From contig JAVUPY010000007.1 of NCBI GenBank assembly GCA_032252755.1, positions 1 through 64,000 on the forward strand: a DNA stretch of 64,000 nucleotides, read 5' to 3'. How positions within the stretch are numbered: position 1 is the stretch's first letter; every line of letters starts with the position of its first letter. Shown one piece after another: positions 14,794-21,452 of this stretch. Source of the DNA: Terriglobia bacterium (GTDB lineage: Bacteria; Acidobacteriota; Terriglobia; Terriglobales; Acidobacteriaceae). The notes below the pieces were generated by a model. It ran no database searches. It was not told where the DNA came from and saw only the letters and a list, made by a program, of their open reading frames with translations. Position numbers and translations under genes: made by a program.

Positions 14794-15534
14794 CTAATGG
14801 GCAGTGTCGATCGAAGCTGCACCTGTGATTCCACTACGATCTTCCACCCAAACCACAACCATAATGTTGTTCTTCTTCCAGGAAGCATCAAGCTCGGTCG
14901 GAACAGCGGAATGATAGGAGCCGGCAGAAATAGTTCCCAATTTCTCTAATTTCCTCACGACTGCGGTGTGGCGCAATATCCGCCCACCATTCTCCCCGGC
15001 ACGGACATTCGTTGTCACGTTGTCCTCCGTGATCGCCAACATTAATGTAGATTCAGCACGAGTCACACCCCGAATAGTGACATCAAGTAAAGTCGGCGTG
15101 GACCATACAAGTTGTAGTTCAATCGGTTTTGCGCGTGTACTCTCTGTGTGAATCGCCTTGCTGATGGCAGGCGCATCGTTTCCTACTATCTCAAGTCGCC
15201 CATCAACTACCATCTGGGGTGTATATGCACTTCCAAGCTTGAACCGATGCGAGTAAGCGGATTGGCGATCGGTGAATACACGGGACGAGAAACGGTCCTT
15301 CCATCCAAGGCCGTCCCAGTAGTCCACGTGTTCCCCCAGGAGAATCAATTGGAACTCTTCTTGCTTTGCGCGTCGGAATTGCTCAAGGAGGTGGTCCGCA
15401 GGCGGGCAACTCGAGCATCCTTCTGAGGTGAAAAGCTCCACAACGACTGGAGTGGGTCTCTTTTGTTGGGAAAAGCCAGCTACGCTAAGCAAGAGCATCG
15501 ACAGCGGGACAAGAACAGAAATGGCAACACGCAT
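14794..15534 (-). CDS. DUF1223 secreted thioredoxin-like protein
   Basis: The 246-residue exported protein has a signal peptide (MRVAISVLVPLSMLLLSVAG) and the DUF1223 start VVVELFTSEGCSSCPPADHLLEQ, whose C40-x2-C43 mimics a thioredoxin active site. The central QMVVDGRLEIVGNDA matches the family. The second half is a beta domain. Function is not known; a periplasmic thiol/disulfide role is a fair inference. It lies 66 bp after DoxX on the same strand, so it may be the fifth gene of the MNIO/RiPP operon. Confidence 0.75.
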   Translation of the reverse strand: MRVAISVLVPLSMLLLSVAGFSQQKRPTPVVVELFTSEGCSSCPPADHLLEQFRRAKQEEFQLILLGEHVDYWDGLGWKDRFSSRVFTDRQSAYSHRFKLGSAYTPQMVVDGRLEIVGNDAPAISKAIHTESTRAKPIELQLVWSTPTLLDVTIRGVTRAESTLMLAITEDNVTTNVRAGENGGRILRHTAVVRKLEKLGTISAGSYHSAVPTELDASWKKNNIMVVVWVEDRSGITGAASIDTAH

Positions 15535-15600
15535 GCCCAGTAGATGGAGCGCACTGTAAGAAGTTACATCGCCGGCCAGACAGTGTCTGAGGACCGGAAC

Positions 15601-16116
15601 CTACACTCGGGCAGCCCTGGCAAACGTTTTCTCTTGTCGATTCTCTTTGGTGCCTTTCCGTCGGAATAACACGTCTAGAGCAAATTTGCCTGGACCAAAA
15701 AACAACACAAGCAGGGAAGCGAATAGGAACGTGTAGGGAGCTGCGCCATAGAACTTTTCGGGGTCAGAGATGATTGACATCAAGGCTTCACGATCGGCAG
15801 CGTAGAATGCGACAGACATGTTTGCGGTCAAAAGGAATGCGGTCGGGCGCGAGGCGAGACCTACAAAGATAAGCACACCGCCGACGAGTTCGAGGACAGC
15901 GACAAACCACGCGTTTGCCGCGGGCGAAGGAATACCCAGAGAAGCAAAGAATTCTGCGACTTGGTGAATGTTTTCGAACTTGCCCCACCCAGTTTGGGCG
16001 AACTGCCACCCCCAATAAACTCGCACCGCCAATAACAATAAATCCTGTCCACGATCGGCAGTTTGTAGGAATCTCGCGTACAAGTTTCTAGCGTGTTTTG
16101 ATAACTGGTGACTCAC
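15601..16116 (-). CDS. DoxX family protein of the RiPP (buf/hvf-like) operon
   Basis: The four-helix membrane protein has about 171 residues, with LAVRVYWGWQFAQTGWGKFENI and VAEFFASLGIPSPAANAWFVAVLELVGG at the family positions. I chose the GTG at 16116 because AAAGGAG stands five bases before it; an upstream ATG at 16149 lies inside the DUF2063 gene. DoxX subunits are regular fourth members of bufferin (bufD) and Hvf operons. In those systems the protein is thought to work with the exported peptide in the membrane. The C-terminal tail is basic (RRKGTKENRQEK). Confidence 0.75.
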   Translation of the reverse strand: MSHQLSKHARNLYARFLQTADRGQDLLLLAVRVYWGWQFAQTGWGKFENIHQVAEFFASLGIPSPAANAWFVAVLELVGGVLIFVGLASRPTAFLLTANMSVAFYAADREALMSIISDPEKFYGAAPYTFLFASLLVLFFGPGKFALDVLFRRKGTKENRQEKTFARAARV

Positions 16117-16127
16117 TGTCTGCTCCT

Positions 16128-16961
16128 TTAATTCGTTCGTCCGATCCAACCCAGGGCCGCAAAGAGTTCGAAGTTGTTGCGGAGGTGTTCTTCCCAGCAG
16201 CTTTCGCTGACGGTCGAATCTCGAAATGCGGCTTCAAGCACGTTTCCAAGAGGAAGCCCTTTGGAAATGTGATCGAGCAACGCGAAAGTGTTCAAATCGA
16301 TACGCTTGTAATGGACCTGAAAATCTAGTCTATGGACCACTAGTCCAACTGGAAACTGCAGGTTGCGTGGCGCTTTGCGCAGTTTCCTTATGGACCCCTT
16401 AGCACTAAGCTGGTCACGTACGTTCAGCAGGGTTTCGTCGACCGAATAGCAAAGTTTCAGAAGTCTGATATGAGGCTGCAGAGCCAATCTGGAATTCGCT
16501 GTGAGTTCCGAAAATTGTTCTGTGGCCAAAGGTCGGAATTCCGCGCCATCGAACGCTTCGATGTGAGCCCATTCAAGTCGTGCCATTTCCAGTGCGAGTG
16601 GAAGGCGAGGACCGACCAGCCATCCGTGCCTCTCGATCCAGTGCGGAAGTTGCTCCCCAAGGTTGCGGAGGGTGAACGTTCGAGATGGACAATCCTCCAA
16701 GTACTGTTTTCTGATCAAATCGAACCGTTTAGCGCCGAGTACTGCTCGTAGTCCGGGGAAGTCCTCGCCAAGAGAATCAAGAACTCGACTCCAGTACGAG
16801 CGGGTGTAGATACCAAGGCGTTCCTGGGCGCCGAGCCGGGGAGTGGCGCGGAGCAGCTTCATTGCTCTTGCCTGGCCTGTCCGGCGCACATCTCCCAACG
16901 CGGTCACCGGTCGCATTATCGACGTGGCGAAGAGCCGTTGCATTTCTGCAAGTCTGCTCAC
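16128..16961 (-). CDS. DUF2063/HvfC-BufC-like partner protein
   Basis: In this 277-residue protein the first about 95 residues match the DUF2063 N-terminal domain: LAEMQRLFATSIMRPVT, then RLGIYTRSYWSRVLDSLGEDFPGLRAVLG, and FDLIRKQYLEDCPSRTFTLRNLGEQLPHWI. The C-terminal part (about 180 residues) is typical of BufC/HvfC and probably carries the peptide-recognition domain. In known systems (HvfBC, TglHI, MbnBC) this protein binds the precursor leader and delivers it to the MNIO enzyme. Its ATG overlaps the stop of the DUF692 gene by 4 bp (ATGA), showing tight coupling. It ends about a dozen bases before the DoxX GTG. Confidence 0.85.
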   Translation of the reverse strand: MSRLAEMQRLFATSIMRPVTALGDVRRTGQARAMKLLRATPRLGAQERLGIYTRSYWSRVLDSLGEDFPGLRAVLGAKRFDLIRKQYLEDCPSRTFTLRNLGEQLPHWIERHGWLVGPRLPLALEMARLEWAHIEAFDGAEFRPLATEQFSELTANSRLALQPHIRLLKLCYSVDETLLNVRDQLSAKGSIRKLRKAPRNLQFPVGLVVHRLDFQVHYKRIDLNTFALLDHISKGLPLGNVLEAAFRDSTVSESCWEEHLRNNFELFAALGWIGRTN

Positions 16962-17812
16962 GAGGCCGCCTCACAACACGTTGCCTGTTCAAGAAACGAG
17001 CGAGACTTCAATGCCTCGGTCATCACTTCATCAAAACTCGGAATGCGATCGTCCCACTCCAGAAGTGTGGCGGTAGGGCCGACTCGATCGATGACTCGGC
17101 TGTAAAGCCTCCAGACATCATTCACTACGGGATGATCGTGAGTGTCCAGAATGTAATTGTCATAGTTTGAATGACCCGCAATATGAATCTGCGCAACTCG
17201 TTCTGTTGGGACCGAGTCGACATAGAGGGAGGGATCGAACTCGTGATTCCTGGAACTCACGTAGACATTATTTACGTCGATAAGTATTCCGCAGTCGGCG
17301 CGTTCAACGATCTCGGAAAGAAATTCCCACTCTGTCATCACGGAGTCCGAAAATTCGGCGTAGCTGCTGACGTTTTCTACGATCAGCGGTACCTCGAGAA
17401 AGTCCTGTGCACACTTAATATTCGCGACGCATATTTCGACTGCTTCCCAGGTGTAGGGGAGTGGAAGCAGGTCGTGCGAATAGCGACCGTCGACGCTACC
17501 CCAGCAGAGGTGATCCGAGACCCAAGGTGTCCCTGTTCGTTTGATCAGCGCTTTCAATCGGCGGAGATGATCTTGGTTCAATCCGTCCGTGGATCCGAGA
17601 TACAGGGAGACTCCGTGCTGGACAACCTTGTAGTGCTCGAGGATCGAATCGAGTATTGCAAGCGGCCGTCCACCGTCGATCATGTAGTTTTCAGAAATAA
17701 TCTCGAACCAATCAGCAGCGGGCCGGGTCTCAAGGATGTGACGATAATGCGGGACTCGGAGGCCGATTCCGACTCCGTAGTTAGTGAATCCGTTGAATCG
17801 ATTTGCAGGCAT
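16958..17812 (-). CDS. DUF692 multinuclear non-heme iron oxidase (MNIO)
   Basis: The 284-residue TIM-barrel iron oxidase belongs to the MbnB/TglH/BufB family, which modifies RiPP precursors. The usual metal ligands and signature residues are all present: GVGIGLR and PHYRHIL at the start, E37 and E41 (WFEIISENYM), H66 (QHGVSL), D100-H101 (VSDHLCW), E146-N147 (IVENVSS), D179 (LIDVNN), H210 and H214 (QIHIAGH), D223/H225 (ILDTHDH) and E252 (LEWDD). In characterised relatives the enzyme oxidises cysteines, or in one case a C-terminal Asp. The adjacent precursor has no Cys, so a different target residue is expected. A perfect hairpin stands between precursor and enzyme genes. Confidence 0.9.
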   Translation of the reverse strand: MPANRFNGFTNYGVGIGLRVPHYRHILETRPAADWFEIISENYMIDGGRPLAILDSILEHYKVVQHGVSLYLGSTDGLNQDHLRRLKALIKRTGTPWVSDHLCWGSVDGRYSHDLLPLPYTWEAVEICVANIKCAQDFLEVPLIVENVSSYAEFSDSVMTEWEFLSEIVERADCGILIDVNNVYVSSRNHEFDPSLYVDSVPTERVAQIHIAGHSNYDNYILDTHDHPVVNDVWRLYSRVIDRVGPTATLLEWDDRIPSFDEVMTEALKSRSFLEQATCCEAAS

Positions 17813-17831
17813 GATAGTCCTGTTTGCGAAT

Positions 17832-17854
17832 GGGACCGGTGGAACACCGGTCCC
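17832..17854 (-). terminator. Intra-operon hairpin between precursor and MNIO genes
   Basis: GGGACCGGT and ACCGGTCCC form a perfect 9-bp, very GC-rich stem closed by a 5-nt loop. It begins six bases after the precursor stop codon and ends about 20 bases before the MNIO start. No U-run follows, so it likely acts as a partial terminator or a 3' stabiliser that gives many precursor mRNAs per enzyme mRNA, a common arrangement in peptide operons. Confidence 0.65.
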
Positions 17855-17859
17855 GGTGA

Positions 17860-18042
17860 TTAGAAGACGTGCTTTTCTTGGTCTTTGTCCTTGTCATTCT
17901 TGTCGCCAAAGAGTGCGGCGGTGTTGACTCCATTGCCATTTGTGTTGGTAGTGAGTGTTTTGGCGAATGCGGAGCCAGAACCAGCCAGCAGTCCTGCCAT
18001 GGCAGCAGCTAATGCGAGAGACCTGAGATCGTTGTTGCTCAT
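17860..18042 (-). CDS. Cysteine-free secreted precursor peptide of the MNIO locus
   Basis: The 60-residue product begins with a Sec signal (MSNNDLRSLALAAAMAGLL... ending AFA, cleavage after about residue 27). This leaves a mature peptide of about 33 residues that starts KTLTTNTNGNG and ends KHVF. The mature part is polar: five Asn, four Asp and five Lys, with a DKNDKDKD tract, and one His next to the last two residues. It has no Cys at all, checked codon by codon; the neighbouring frames do not give a Cys-rich alternative. Its size, signal peptide and place as first gene before DUF692 and DUF2063 mark it as the BufA/HvfA-equivalent substrate. The start ATG has GAAAGG about 10 bases upstream. 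Whether it is modified is unknown. Confidence 0.75.
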   Translation of the reverse strand: MSNNDLRSLALAAAMAGLLAGSGSAFAKTLTTNTNGNGVNTAALFGDKNDKDKDQEKHVF

Positions 18043-18120
18043 TTCCGGTGTACCTTTCGAAGTTTAATTGCGACCGTCCTCGTGGTCGGCTGCCAGTTCG
18101 TATCTGCGGCAACAGCGATG

Positions 18121-18146
18121 AGAGTGTCTTTATGCGGAAAAGTTAC
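18121..18146 (-). promoter_or_regulatory. Candidate ECF-type promoter for the precursor operon
   Basis: On the minus strand GTAACTTTTC (GTAAC at 18146 to 18142) is followed, 17 bases later, by CTCTC at 18124 to 18120. The same ten-base element occurs on the plus strand in front of the sigma gene. The distance to the precursor ATG (18042) is about 80 bp. The -35 match is good; the -10 is only approximate. Confidence 0.45.
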
Positions 18147-18191
18147 GGGGCAGCTGTGAGTTAATCCACGACCAGCAGATCAAGAAGATGT

Positions 18192-18217
18192 GTAACTTTT
18201 CGGCCCTTTGCAGCGTC
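18192..18217 (+). promoter_or_regulatory. Candidate ECF promoter of the sigma factor gene
   Basis: GTAAC (18192-18196) and CGTC (18214-18217) are separated by exactly 17 bases, the typical layout of an ECF-sigma promoter (AAC-motif -35 and CGTC -10). It lies about 22 bp before the GTG of the sigma gene, so autoregulation is likely. The GTAACTTTTC core is repeated in the opposite direction before the precursor operon. Confidence 0.55.
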
Positions 18218-18239
18218 GATAAAAGACCGAAGAGAATAC

Positions 18240-18905
18240 GTGCAGGATTCCAGCGCAAAGTCGACGAATTCCGAGGAAGCCACTACTCGAGAGTCGGGTA
18301 TGATCGCCCGTATCCTCTCGGGCGAGCGCGACCTCTTTCACGATTTGATAAAGCCTTACGAACGGGGCGTATATGTCGCCGCATATTCAATCCTGCAAAA
18401 CGAGGCAGACGCCGAGGACGTCGCGCAGGAAGCAGTTCTCAAAGCGTTCGTCGGACTAAGGAATTTTCGTGGCGAATCCCGGTTCAATACATGGTTGCTT
18501 GCGATCACGCTGAACGAAGCTCGCGCCCGATTGCGACGAGTGCGGAGTTCGAGGTTCGAGTCCTTGAGCGAAAGCATGGAGGAGGACGATGGAGATTACA
18601 CTCCTGCGGTGCTGGCGGACTGGCGTTTTGTGCCTTCTGAAGCACTGGAGCAACAGGAACTGCGGAACCTGATTCAGGAGGCGATCGCACAACTATCGCT
18701 GCGAGATCGCGAAATACTATTGTTGCGCGACATCCGGGAGCTTAGTATCGCGGAAACCGCAAAGGCCCTGGGAAAAACTGAAGGAGTTGTGAAAATACGA
18801 CTCTTCCGGGCCCGGCTAAGGCTGCAGAAAATGCTTGCACCTCGGCTCGGAACGAATCGTCGCGGGTTGCTGGCTTGGTTCGCGCGGAAGGGGGGTGTTC
18901 GATGA
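18240..18905 (+). CDS. ECF RNA polymerase sigma factor
   Basis: The sigma-70 family ECF protein has about 221 residues from the GTG at 18240. Region 2: GERDLFHDLIKPYERGVYVAAYSIL, then EADAEDVAQEAVLKAFVGLRNF and FNTWLLAITLNEARARLRR. Region 4: LSLRDREILLLRDIRELSIAETAKALGKTEGVVKIRLFRARLRLQKML. An in-frame ATG at 18300 (MIARILSG) is an alternative start nearer to the family N-terminus. Its TGA overlaps the ATG of the zinc-finger anti-sigma gene. It is divergent from the MNIO/RiPP operon and shares a promoter element with it; bufferin operons in Caulobacter are known to be under ECF sigma control, which supports the link. Confidence 0.9.
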   Translation: MQDSSAKSTNSEEATTRESGMIARILSGERDLFHDLIKPYERGVYVAAYSILQNEADAEDVAQEAVLKAFVGLRNFRGESRFNTWLLAITLNEARARLRRVRSSRFESLSESMEEDDGDYTPAVLADWRFVPSEALEQQELRNLIQEAIAQLSLRDREILLLRDIRELSIAETAKALGKTEGVVKIRLFRARLRLQKMLAPRLGTNRRGLLAWFARKGGVR

Positions 18906-19153
18906 CAATCAAGTGCAGGGAAGTCTGGGACCAGATTAGCAATTACATCGATGGAACTGTACCGCCTGAGTTGAAGAGCGCGATCGAAAAACACCTCGCC
19001 CAGTGCAACTATTGCTCTGCCGTTCTCGACTCGACGAAGAACATCCTGATATTGGTAGCCGATGATCGAACTTTTAAGATTCCCATCGGGTATACAGAAA
19101 GGTTGCACGAAAGATTACAGCAGCTAATGGATGAAGAAGGCCACGAGCACTAA
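18902..19153 (+). CDS. Zinc-finger (ZAS) anti-sigma factor
   Basis: This small soluble anti-sigma factor (83 residues) has the zinc motif H31-x3-C35-x2-C38 (KHLAQCNYC) and an upstream C5, the pattern of the RsrA/ChrR-type ZAS domain. The domain would hold the ECF sigma inactive until an oxidant or metal releases it. There is no membrane segment. The ATG overlaps the sigma stop (ATGA), so the pair is translationally coupled. Thiol and zinc chemistry fits sensing of oxidative or metal stress. Confidence 0.8.
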   Translation: MTIKCREVWDQISNYIDGTVPPELKSAIEKHLAQCNYCSAVLDSTKNILILVADDRTFKIPIGYTERLHERLQQLMDEEGHEH

Positions 19154-19612: not shown

Positions 19613-19789
19613 GCACGATTAGACGCGTTGGCGTGTCGGCTGGAGGCAAGATTGTTTGTCTGGTGAGCGACCGACCTAACTTTTACCTCCATAAGACAGC
19701 GTCGTGACACCAAGTCCTTCTGGTCCTCCTATGTTTCAGGAAGGCGATCACGTTTGGATCGTACTTGTGCTTTGAACTGGAGGACTCGG

Positions 19790-20743
19790 ATGTTCCGAAG
19801 TCGCAAATTGCTTTTTCTTCTTGTTCTGGCGATGCTGGCATTCGAGAGTGTCGCTCAAACGAACAATTCTTACAACCAGACGAATTTAGTGTCTGATGTG
19901 AATGGGGTCGCGCAACACACAGACCCGGCGCTGGTGAATCCGTGGGGAATCTCCTTCGTTCCAGGCGGACCATTCTGGATCGCAAACAACGGGACCGGTA
20001 CTTCCACAATCTATGACGGATCTGGCGCGACCGAACGGCATAAGGTAACCATTCTAGCCGGGCCGAACACCAATGGGCCAGCGGTCGTCACAGGCACCGT
20101 TGCAAACACGACGACCGGTTGGATGATCGACGGGATTCCAAGTCAATTTCTATTCGTTTCCGAAGACGGCACGATCACTGGTTGGACCGGCGGAGTGAAC
20201 GCAAAGATCGTTGTGAACAATTCAGCGACCGGGGCAGTTTACAAAGGCCTCGCCACGGGTACGACTGCAACCGGCAACTTTCTCTATGCTACGAACTTTA
20301 GTCAGAATCGAGTTGACGTCTTCGACCGGAATTTCAATCTGGTCCATTTGACCGGAAACTTTAGTGATCCTGACCTCCCGGCAGGCTACGCTCCGTTTGG
20401 GATCGCAAACGTTGGGAACAATCGTCTGGTAATCACGTTTGCGATGCAGGATGCCTCAAAGAAAGGTGATGTTGCAGGTGACGGTCATGGATTTGTCGAT
20501 GTATTTGATACTGACGGAACCTTGGTTGTTCGCTTCGCAAGCCAGGGGACACCGAATTCGCCGTGGGGCATCGCTGTATCGCCTGACAACTTCGGACCGT
20601 TCAGCAATGCTATGTTGATCGGGAATTTCGGCGACGGAACCATCAATGCTTTCGATCTCGGGACGCACAATTTTCTTGGCCAGCTGAACAATGGTGCCGG
20701 TCGCCCGATGGTGATCGATGGCCTGTGGGGACTGACTTTGTGA
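19790..20743 (+). CDS. TIGR03118 family protein, C-terminally truncated
   Basis: The ATG at 19790 has GGAGGAC just upstream; a signal peptide (FRSRKLLFLLVLAMLAFESVAQ) follows. The body is a beta-propeller-like secreted protein with the TIGR03118 opening NLVSDVNGVAQHTDPALVNPWGISF. The family normally continues after GLWGLT with an FGNGG segment and 30 or more further residues; here the frame reads GLWGLTL-stop (317 residues) exactly where a truncated TonB-receptor fragment on the other strand begins. The family's function is unknown. The gene is therefore probably broken. Confidence 0.7.
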   Translation: MFRSRKLLFLLVLAMLAFESVAQTNNSYNQTNLVSDVNGVAQHTDPALVNPWGISFVPGGPFWIANNGTGTSTIYDGSGATERHKVTILAGPNTNGPAVVTGTVANTTTGWMIDGIPSQFLFVSEDGTITGWTGGVNAKIVVNNSATGAVYKGLATGTTATGNFLYATNFSQNRVDVFDRNFNLVHLTGNFSDPDLPAGYAPFGIANVGNNRLVITFAMQDASKKGDVAGDGHGFVDVFDTDGTLVVRFASQGTPNSPWGIAVSPDNFGPFSNAMLIGNFGDGTINAFDLGTHNFLGQLNNGAGRPMVIDGLWGLTL

Positions 20744-21452
20744 CAGAGCCGCCGCCGCGGCCGAACTCGGCCGGATAGGAGTTGGTCAGAACCACCACTT
20801 GCTTGACCGCCTCGGGATTCTGGTTCTGAATTGCCTGTCCGGAGATTCCGTTGTCGTTGTTGTCGAACCCATCGATCAGGAAGTTGTTCGCTCTTGGCCG
20901 AAGACCATCGACGGAATATCCGAAACCGTTGGTGAAGGCATCTCGCTGGCTTATGCTCACAATGCCTGGCTTTGTCAGCGACAGCTCCACTGGATTTTGC
21001 GAAAAGATCGGCAGCTCTGTAACAGCCGCTTCCGGCACGATCTGACTGATTTCCGCAGTTTCGGTCTGCAGGAGGCCCTGGCTGGCCTCGACCTCGATCG
21101 TGTCAACAGCAGTTCCCGGTTTGAGCTGTGCGTTCAGCGATGTGACAACCGAGGCGCGTACATCAAGCGATGGGATCTTCGCCGGGGAGAATCCCTGTTG
21201 CGTAACTGTGACTTCGTAAACACTCGGAATAACGGCTTCTATCCTGAATTCACCGTTGCTTCCGGTAGTTGTGGTGCGTACATCACCACCATTTGTATTC
21301 TTCGCCGTGACTGTCGCACCAATGACAACAGCCCCGCTTGAGTCTGTGATGGTTCCGGCGATCGTGCCCTTACTGGTCTGTGCAGGTGAAACTGTTGCAA
21401 GTGCCACCAGTATCAGGCAGGAGACAAGAACCATTGCTGAAATGCGTCTCAT
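20643..21452 (-). CDS. TonB-dependent receptor-like protein with carboxypeptidase regulatory domain, truncated
   Basis: After a signal peptide (MRRISAMVLVSCLILVALA), residues about 28-110 form a carboxypeptidase-regulatory-like (Big/CNA) domain: GTIAGTITDSSGAVVIGATVTAKN and EVTVTQQGFSPAKIPSLDV. Residues about 130-238 form the start of a TonB plug, with FLIDGFDNNDNGISGQAIQN and AEFGRGGGSVT. Such OmpA-like receptors of Acidobacteriota usually exceed 1,000 residues. Here the homology stops after GGGSVT (residue 238), and the remaining 31 residues are antisense of the TIGR03118 gene. It cannot form a barrel and is a pseudogene unless the assembly is wrong. Confidence 0.7.
   Translation of the reverse strand: MRRISAMVLVSCLILVALATVSPAQTSKGTIAGTITDSSGAVVIGATVTAKNTNGGDVRTTTTGSNGEFRIEAVIPSVYEVTVTQQGFSPAKIPSLDVRASVVTSLNAQLKPGTAVDTIEVEASQGLLQTETAEISQIVPEAAVTELPIFSQNPVELSLTKPGIVSISQRDAFTNGFGYSVDGLRPRANNFLIDGFDNNDNGISGQAIQNQNPEAVKQVVVLTNSYPAEFGRGGGSVTKSVPTGHRSPSGDRHHCSAGQENCASRDRKH
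20736..20740. other. Junction of two truncated genes
   Basis: The TIGR03118 gene (plus) is family-like up to WGLT, and the TonB-receptor gene (minus) is family-like up to GGGSVT. Both run out of homologous sequence within the same few bases. The simplest reading is one breakpoint: a deletion, inversion or assembly join. Confidence 0.65.

Follow-up and report, generated by a model that had tools for sequence, protein, structure and literature searches.

Is a precursor peptide without a single cysteine, encoded beside a bufferin-type maturation enzyme, a functional kind of peptide in its own right, or is it what remains of an ordinary precursor? This question is raised by a locus of Terriglobia bacterium (Acidobacteriaceae; assembly GCA_032252755.1), located in a stretch of 64,000 nucleotides (contig JAVUPY010000007.1, positions 1 to 64,000) that is hereafter called the window. 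A previous sequence-only reading of the window had described a small exported open reading frame (ORF) without Cys upstream of genes for a multinuclear non-heme iron-dependent oxidase (MNIO), a DUF2063 protein, a DoxX protein and a DUF1223 protein, all of which we located at the coordinates of Table 1. It had also classed the MNIO operon as bufferin-type, with an extracytoplasmic function (ECF) sigma/anti-sigma pair placed divergently, which profile matches and coordinates bear out, and the precursor was confirmed to contain 0 Cys. Our analysis suggests that this is probably an operon of the Buf2/captophorin "Cys-Lys" kind, which is frequent in the family, and that its precursor has probably lost the Cys core and thereby its metallophore function. 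At the level of description, we are highly confident that a Buf2/captophorin precursor is here without its Cys core; the deletion as an event, its date and the loss of function are what we infer from it.

The precursor and its orthologues

The 60-aa protein was searched against 61 genomes, namely its own (G000) and 60 relatives, and 22 of the 61 gave a match at E <= 1. The sole clear match outside G000 was the precursor of the orthologous locus of G032 (47% identity over residues 1-58, E 8.6e-5; next E 0.0998), and the small ORF is therefore more than a chance reading frame. The G032 locus (L002) is laid out as in the window, with a membrane protein, the anti-sigma and the sigma factor on one side and the precursor and MNIO on the other. 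Its precursor also carries an Asp/Lys linker ahead of the Cys core (AKADKDKKDKHSC) and continues past ..DKH with SCAGKNDCKGKGGCKSSDNGCKGKNSCKGKGGC.., the point at which the window ORF stops. The window precursor terminates in EKHVF, while at that place the relatives read KH[SA]CKG..., the beginning of a core with the pattern ..KH[SA]CKGKNxCKGxGGC.. and 4-7 Cys.

A precursor profile (A1) was built from seven relatives with full leaders and comprised 96 positions. The window ORF matched positions 3-54 of the 96 with 24.9 bits, compared to 113-131 bits for five relatives, two of which (G032 and G155) had contributed to the profile. Since only positions 3-54 are covered, the window ORF corresponds to leader plus linker, its end being the KH with which the core would begin. 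Leader residues A13, A14, G17 and G21, invariant in the 7-row alignment, are retained. Deletion may or may not have proceeded through microhomology at the AAGCAC codons (KH). A frameshift concealing the Cys core was ruled out, as no CKG motif occurs in any frame of the 47 bases that separate the precursor stop from the MNIO start. The inverted repeat within this gap folds with -20.6 kcal/mol (z -4.3). A stable fold between precursor and MNIO was also observed in the family at large (z < -2 in 78 of 100 loci examined); given that the fold is usual in the family and present in the window, it appears that the loss of the core left the hairpin untouched.

The closest known systems are the Buf2 (BufA2B2C2) bufferins, which share with the window the order precursor-MNIO-DUF2063-DoxX, the Sec signal peptide and a BufB-type MNIO (Antoine et al. 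2025; PMC12452194). The leader of the window precursor, which lies ahead of the MNIO gene, matches those of the relatives, and its signal peptide was judged by eye. All seven precursors of relatives that were scanned match NF050166 (BufA2; best E 4.6e-10, one of them at 34.9 bits, under the cut-off of 60), whereas the window precursor lacks the 6-Cys domain, having 0 Cys, and no NF050166 match was obtained at its locus. Clusters of DUF692 and DUF2063 genes with six-Cys precursors had been noted earlier in gammaproteobacteria (PMC8692599). In the captophorin Cys-Lys group (PMC13097082) the catalytic Asp is followed by the same Asp as in the window MNIO (D254-D255), and the cores of the relatives hold SCKG and DCKG. 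The window precursor, in contrast, has no Cys and hence no Cys-Lys motif, so that no 5-thiooxazole is possible on it. The oxazolin HvfABC/EGKCG type shares MNIO, DUF2063 and DoxX (HvfX) genes with the window, but the window MNIO scores under the HvfB cut-off and over the BufB one, and the precursor has no EGKCG repeat.

Distribution of Cys-bearing and Cys-free precursors

Within the family, MNIO genes were detected in 108 of 300 genomes, and in view of this patchy distribution the operon is evidently dispensable. After two partial matches (G127 and G190) were left out of 111, 109 loci remained, the window included. A Cys core is encoded directly upstream in 105 of these (64 with 6 Cys, 34 with 4, 6 with 5 and 1 with 7), and a common leader motif is found in 102 of the 105 precursors. 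In L039 and L061 (G120 and G152) a Cys precursor lies 0.9-1.0 kb further upstream, another gene, by eye a membrane-protein-like ORF, being placed between it and MNIO; L129, the second MNIO of G164 (39% identical), is accompanied by a 4-Cys Buf1 precursor. The window thus holds the only Cys-free precursor among the 109 family loci.

Two further sets gave a similar picture. At the class level, matches were present in 112 of 399 genomes and 62 loci were examined, six of them also in the family set, while the other matches either belonged to family members dealt with before or were left aside; a Cys-bearing precursor was recorded in 58 by script and in a 59th (L300) on reading, while L270 and L289, with under 200 bases of upstream sequence, could not be judged. 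No precursor was seen in 2.5 kb upstream of L294 (G583), where a homoserine-dehydrogenase-like ORF lies directly upstream and a DUF2063-like ORF accompanies the MNIO (both by eye). Among the 77 loci of the named-genome set, 66 have a Cys precursor by script. In L140 and L187, which are the same loci as L061 and L039, the precursor was located 1.2-1.3 kb up; the L158 peptide has 4 Cys, three within the core, and L150, with 202 bases upstream only, was not judged. In seven Erythrobacter loci (L184-L186, L188-L191) the precursor is of the Buf1 type and is encoded on the other strand than MNIO, no more than about 0.75 kb away, an arrangement unlike the bufABC order that is called strictly conserved in the survey of PMC12452194.

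The three sets (109, 62 and 77 loci) overlap; told apart by a stretch of 440 bases, their MNIO sequences number 221. None of the sets yielded a further Cys-free precursor, L150, L270, L289 and L294 being not judgeable or without precursor, and a Cys-free precursor as a wider trait is ruled out for the loci examined. The proposal that Cys-free precursors form a functional kind is therefore not upheld: in the relatives, this operon encodes Cys-bearing precursors, and the window form is unique among the loci. Other variation was also observed. The precursors of L282, L283 and L291 are a variant that has a CC dipeptide (KHCCAGKN) and contains 8 Cys, the core is repeated in most of L298-L306, with 10-13 Cys counted in the ORF, and in L045 (G165, a genome 77% complete) the MNIO gene has an in-frame TAA despite an upstream 6-Cys precursor.

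The MNIO and its partner proteins

The score of the window MNIO against NF050167 (Table 1) exceeds the cut-off of 310 and identifies a bufferin maturase, although Buf1 and Buf2 enzymes are not told apart by this model; against the HvfB model it reaches 243 bits, with a cut-off of 360. Likewise, the window DUF2063 protein obtains 37 bits against the HvfC model (cut-off 142). The family MNIOs were aligned with the exception of L045 (in-frame stop) and L129, and across the resulting 107 sequences, window included, 32 His/Asp/Glu/Asn positions do not vary. D254 and D255 are among them, and the earlier statement that the active-site residues are kept holds. Seven departures of the window MNIO were recorded at columns conserved to at least 97%, none of them at His/Asp/Glu/Asn residues. 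A wider alignment contains 134 columns conserved to at least 97% among 158 other sequences; the window MNIO keeps 129 and differs at 5, all conservatively.

For captophorin MNIOs, Asp249 of FonB is the proposed base, the next position being Phe in the Lys-Cys and Asp in the Cys-Lys group (PMC13097082). D254-D255 of the window align with an Asp-Phe of 3BWW in a stretch that is weak (7.3 bits alone). Through this correspondence, D254 would be the proposed catalytic base and D255 the Asp of the Cys-Lys type. As D254-D255 are retained, the enzyme still looks like a Cys-Lys MNIO, which argues against a switch to another residue, as had been suggested from the window alone.

Of 39 DUF2063 columns with 95% conservation, 6 are changed in the window protein, the joint highest count of the set, while 0 of 37 conserved columns are changed in the sigma factor and 0 of 20 in DoxX. 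Comparison of the DUF2063 protein with solved structures by sequence gave no convincing match (best E 0.2, an aminotransferase).

Search for another precursor in the genome

Neither a second MNIO nor DUF2282 was found in G000. No other precursor of the Buf1, Buf2-like, Cys-Lys or EGKCG type was detected in this genome, the stray matches being short or in unrelated frames. The best scores of the BufA2 model in G000 were 13.6 and 13.0 bits, compared to 38.2 and 31.6 in two relatives. Paired CxG[K/Q]xxCxG sites 57 bases apart are present in all six control relatives and absent from G000, where three single matches are scattered; a reversed-pattern control gave six. A Cys precursor for this enzyme, the discovery of which the sequence-only reading had regarded as telling against its proposal, was found among the orthologues only and not in this genome.

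Regulation and neighbouring genes

The sigma factor of the window has region 2 and region 4 domains and an adjoining anti-sigma factor with HxxxCxxC. Where the flanks of the family loci are complete, an adjoining pair of this kind occurs in 31 of 69 (42 of 109 overall), and HxxxCxxC is present in all 42; L022, L023, L026 and L028 are examples of loci with the pair near a Buf2-type operon. In the survey of PMC12452194, sigma genes were seen with Buf1 and not with Buf2, and in this respect the window locus, flanked by sigma/anti-sigma genes, differs from the published Buf2 systems. Of 104 loci examined, 46 have the motif TG[TC]AAC[CT]TT ahead of the precursor gene (13 on the other strand; 0.5 in shuffles), and 15 have it together with a GTC box (0 in shuffles). 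The motif and the layout are consistent with the window sigma factor driving the precursor operon.

Table 1. Features of the MNIO locus and its surroundings, in window coordinates.
Feature	Position	Strand	Evidence or remark
DUF1223 secreted protein (CSSCPP)	14794-15534	-	profile match
DoxX (HvfX-like) membrane protein	15601-16149	-	HvfX model 53.3 bits, under cut-off of 80
DUF2063 partner protein (BufC/PME1 type)	16128-16961	-	PF09836 59.4 bits, cut-off 27.2
MNIO (BufB type), 284 aa	16958-17812	-	PF05114 3e-107; NF050167 MNIO_BufB 352.9 bits
Perfect inverted repeat, 10-bp stem, 3-nt loop as folded	17832-17854	-	between precursor stop and MNIO start
bufA2-type precursor remnant, 60 aa, 0 Cys	17860-18042	-	signal peptide about residues 1-27 (by eye) plus linker
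Candidate ECF-like promoter towards precursor, CGTAACTTTT	18120-18147	-	one mismatch to TGTAAC (CGTAAC); no clear GTC at expected place
ECF-like promoter towards sigma, TGTAACTTTTC-N-CGTC	18191-18217	+	motif match
ECF sigma factor	18240-18905	+	divergent from precursor operon; profile match
zf-HC2 anti-sigma factor, HxxxCxxC zinc finger	18875-19153	+	profile match
TIGR03118 protein	19754-20743	+	profile positions 1-304 of 336 covered
TonB/Oar-like gene	20643-21452	-	regulatory and plug domains only

The DUF2063 and MNIO genes overlap by 4 bases. Among the 109 loci (flanks of 1.5-3.5 kb), that of the window is the only one with a DUF1223 gene downstream of MNIO; in 12 others this gene lies upstream. 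The TIGR03118 and TonB/Oar-like genes are convergent, about 2.7 kb beyond the precursor, and the homology of both stops at 20735-20743. This shared break could be either a deletion junction or a misjoin.

Rate of evolution and points against core loss

Several observations weigh against the loss of the core and its function, or complicate it. The Cys-free form is known from one genome, and it may or may not be fixed. The operon has no interrupted ORF and its enzymes retain most of their conserved positions, so decay is not plain in them. Selection may or may not be relaxed: the seven departures of the window MNIO at conserved columns are the most of any sequence (rank 1 of 107), and its terminal branch, at 0.31, is longer than all others (median 0.065, n=27). 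The placement of the window MNIO varies by tree, being either basal or with L023/L028 (UFboot 66 for the enclosing 9 tips), and old divergence or transfer of this MNIO is possible.

The RecA of the same genome is ordinary (branch 0.066, median 0.071) in a comparison of the 27 of 30 genomes with full RecA; of the three dropped (G119, G155 and G175), the latter two are the nearest relatives of the window locus in some trees. The MNIO root-to-tip length is 2.37, the mean being 1.99 (sd 0.12; rank 1 of 47), and the terminal branches of the other products rank 1 of 105 (DUF2063), 2 of 42 (anti-sigma), 3 of 92 (DoxX) and 9 of 41 (sigma). Relative-rate tests with distant outgroups were flat (p < 0.05 in 3 of 184), while with near outgroups p < 0.05 was obtained in 18 of 26, with an about two-fold excess, and in 1 of 21 control tests; these tests share sequences and are not independent. 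Some relaxation, adaptation or old divergence of MNIO are all possible. The long branches and the near-outgroup tests favour the explanation that the disappearance of its substrate has sped up MNIO evolution. We did not adopt it, since the distant-outgroup tests are flat and the placement is unstable, and we do not claim proof of decay. The conservation at slow sites would be explained either by a recent loss of the core or by work that the enzyme still has.

Proposed mechanism and alternatives

In the intact relatives, the zinc-finger anti-sigma would release the ECF sigma factor and the operon would be transcribed, the MNIO-DUF2063 pair would bind the leader and oxidize the Cys of the CKG motifs, probably to 5-thiooxazoles, and the product would be exported to the periplasm and bind copper. 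This scheme is modelled on published Buf1 and other captophorin work; the Buf2 modification itself is not yet identified in PMC12452194. In the window precursor there is no Cys to oxidize, and consequently the exported tail should be unmodified and no metallophore made.

An assembly fault, with the contig misjoined across the core and the real precursor gene intact, would also produce the observed ORF. The assembly has 96 contigs and 3.03% contamination, and the clean junction near 20738, about 2.7 kb from the precursor, could be a misjoin. However, collapse of a repeat should spare at least one CKGKNxC unit, and none was found in the gap in any frame or elsewhere in the genome; moreover, the ORF has its own stop and the downstream hairpin is intact. 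We thus consider such a fault unlikely. The intact leader, start, stop and hairpin could also belong to an unmodified peptide with a job of its own, be it regulatory, in the envelope or as a weak metal buffer. Yet the form is confined to one genome, its tail has one His and no Cys, and no orthologue of the short form exists among the loci examined, which leaves this explanation a very small chance.

It is also conceivable that the MNIO modifies the Cys-free tail itself, e.g., by adding hydroxyl groups to the Asp or Asn residues of DKNDKDKD. Asp, Asn and Phe are established targets of some MNIOs (PMC12452194), and one MNIO beta-hydroxylates Asp (PMC13060819). The window enzyme retains most conserved positions, and its excess change at variable ones could reflect adaptation as well. 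On the other hand, this BufB-type enzyme keeps D255, the Asp of Cys-Lys MNIOs, and the linker precedes the core in the Cys-bearing G032 precursor too, hence it is no new substrate motif; modification of the tail appears improbable. Its most specific version, that a Buf2-type pair without a Cys core still binds the leader and oxidizes the Asp/Asn linker (e.g., to beta-hydroxy-Asp), yielding a Cys-free exported metal-binding peptide, is in our opinion highly improbable. Alternatively, the enzyme pair may act in trans on a Cys peptide encoded elsewhere. Stand-alone precursor genes and single enzyme pairs beside several precursors have been described (PMC12452194), and the constraint on the enzyme persists. 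However, the search of G000 yielded none of the precursor types looked for, although it was limited to known types, and we regard a substrate in trans as quite doubtful.

In PMC12452194, precursors were gathered by the presence of Cys, the unannotated ORFs of the remaining clusters formed no conserved families, the smallest Buf1 precursors are considered likely truncated, and precursors in genomes without MNIO are thought to be possibly unmodified or no longer functional. The same paper mentions preliminary indications that the recognition sequence includes the signal peptide. A search of open-licence papers for precursors lacking cysteine and for MNIO or DUF692 in acidobacteria retrieved no account of this case.

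Significance

The loss of the Cys core, if correct, removes a candidate for a Cys-free class of MNIO RiPPs and carries the lesson that a precursor needs to be read against its orthologues. At the same time, nature provides here a precursor reduced to its leader, next to an MNIO pair that seems intact, and this makes the locus useful for leader-recognition tests. For this family of Acidobacteriota, our analysis reveals a Buf2-like family of operons, often with a flanking ECF sigma/anti-sigma pair.

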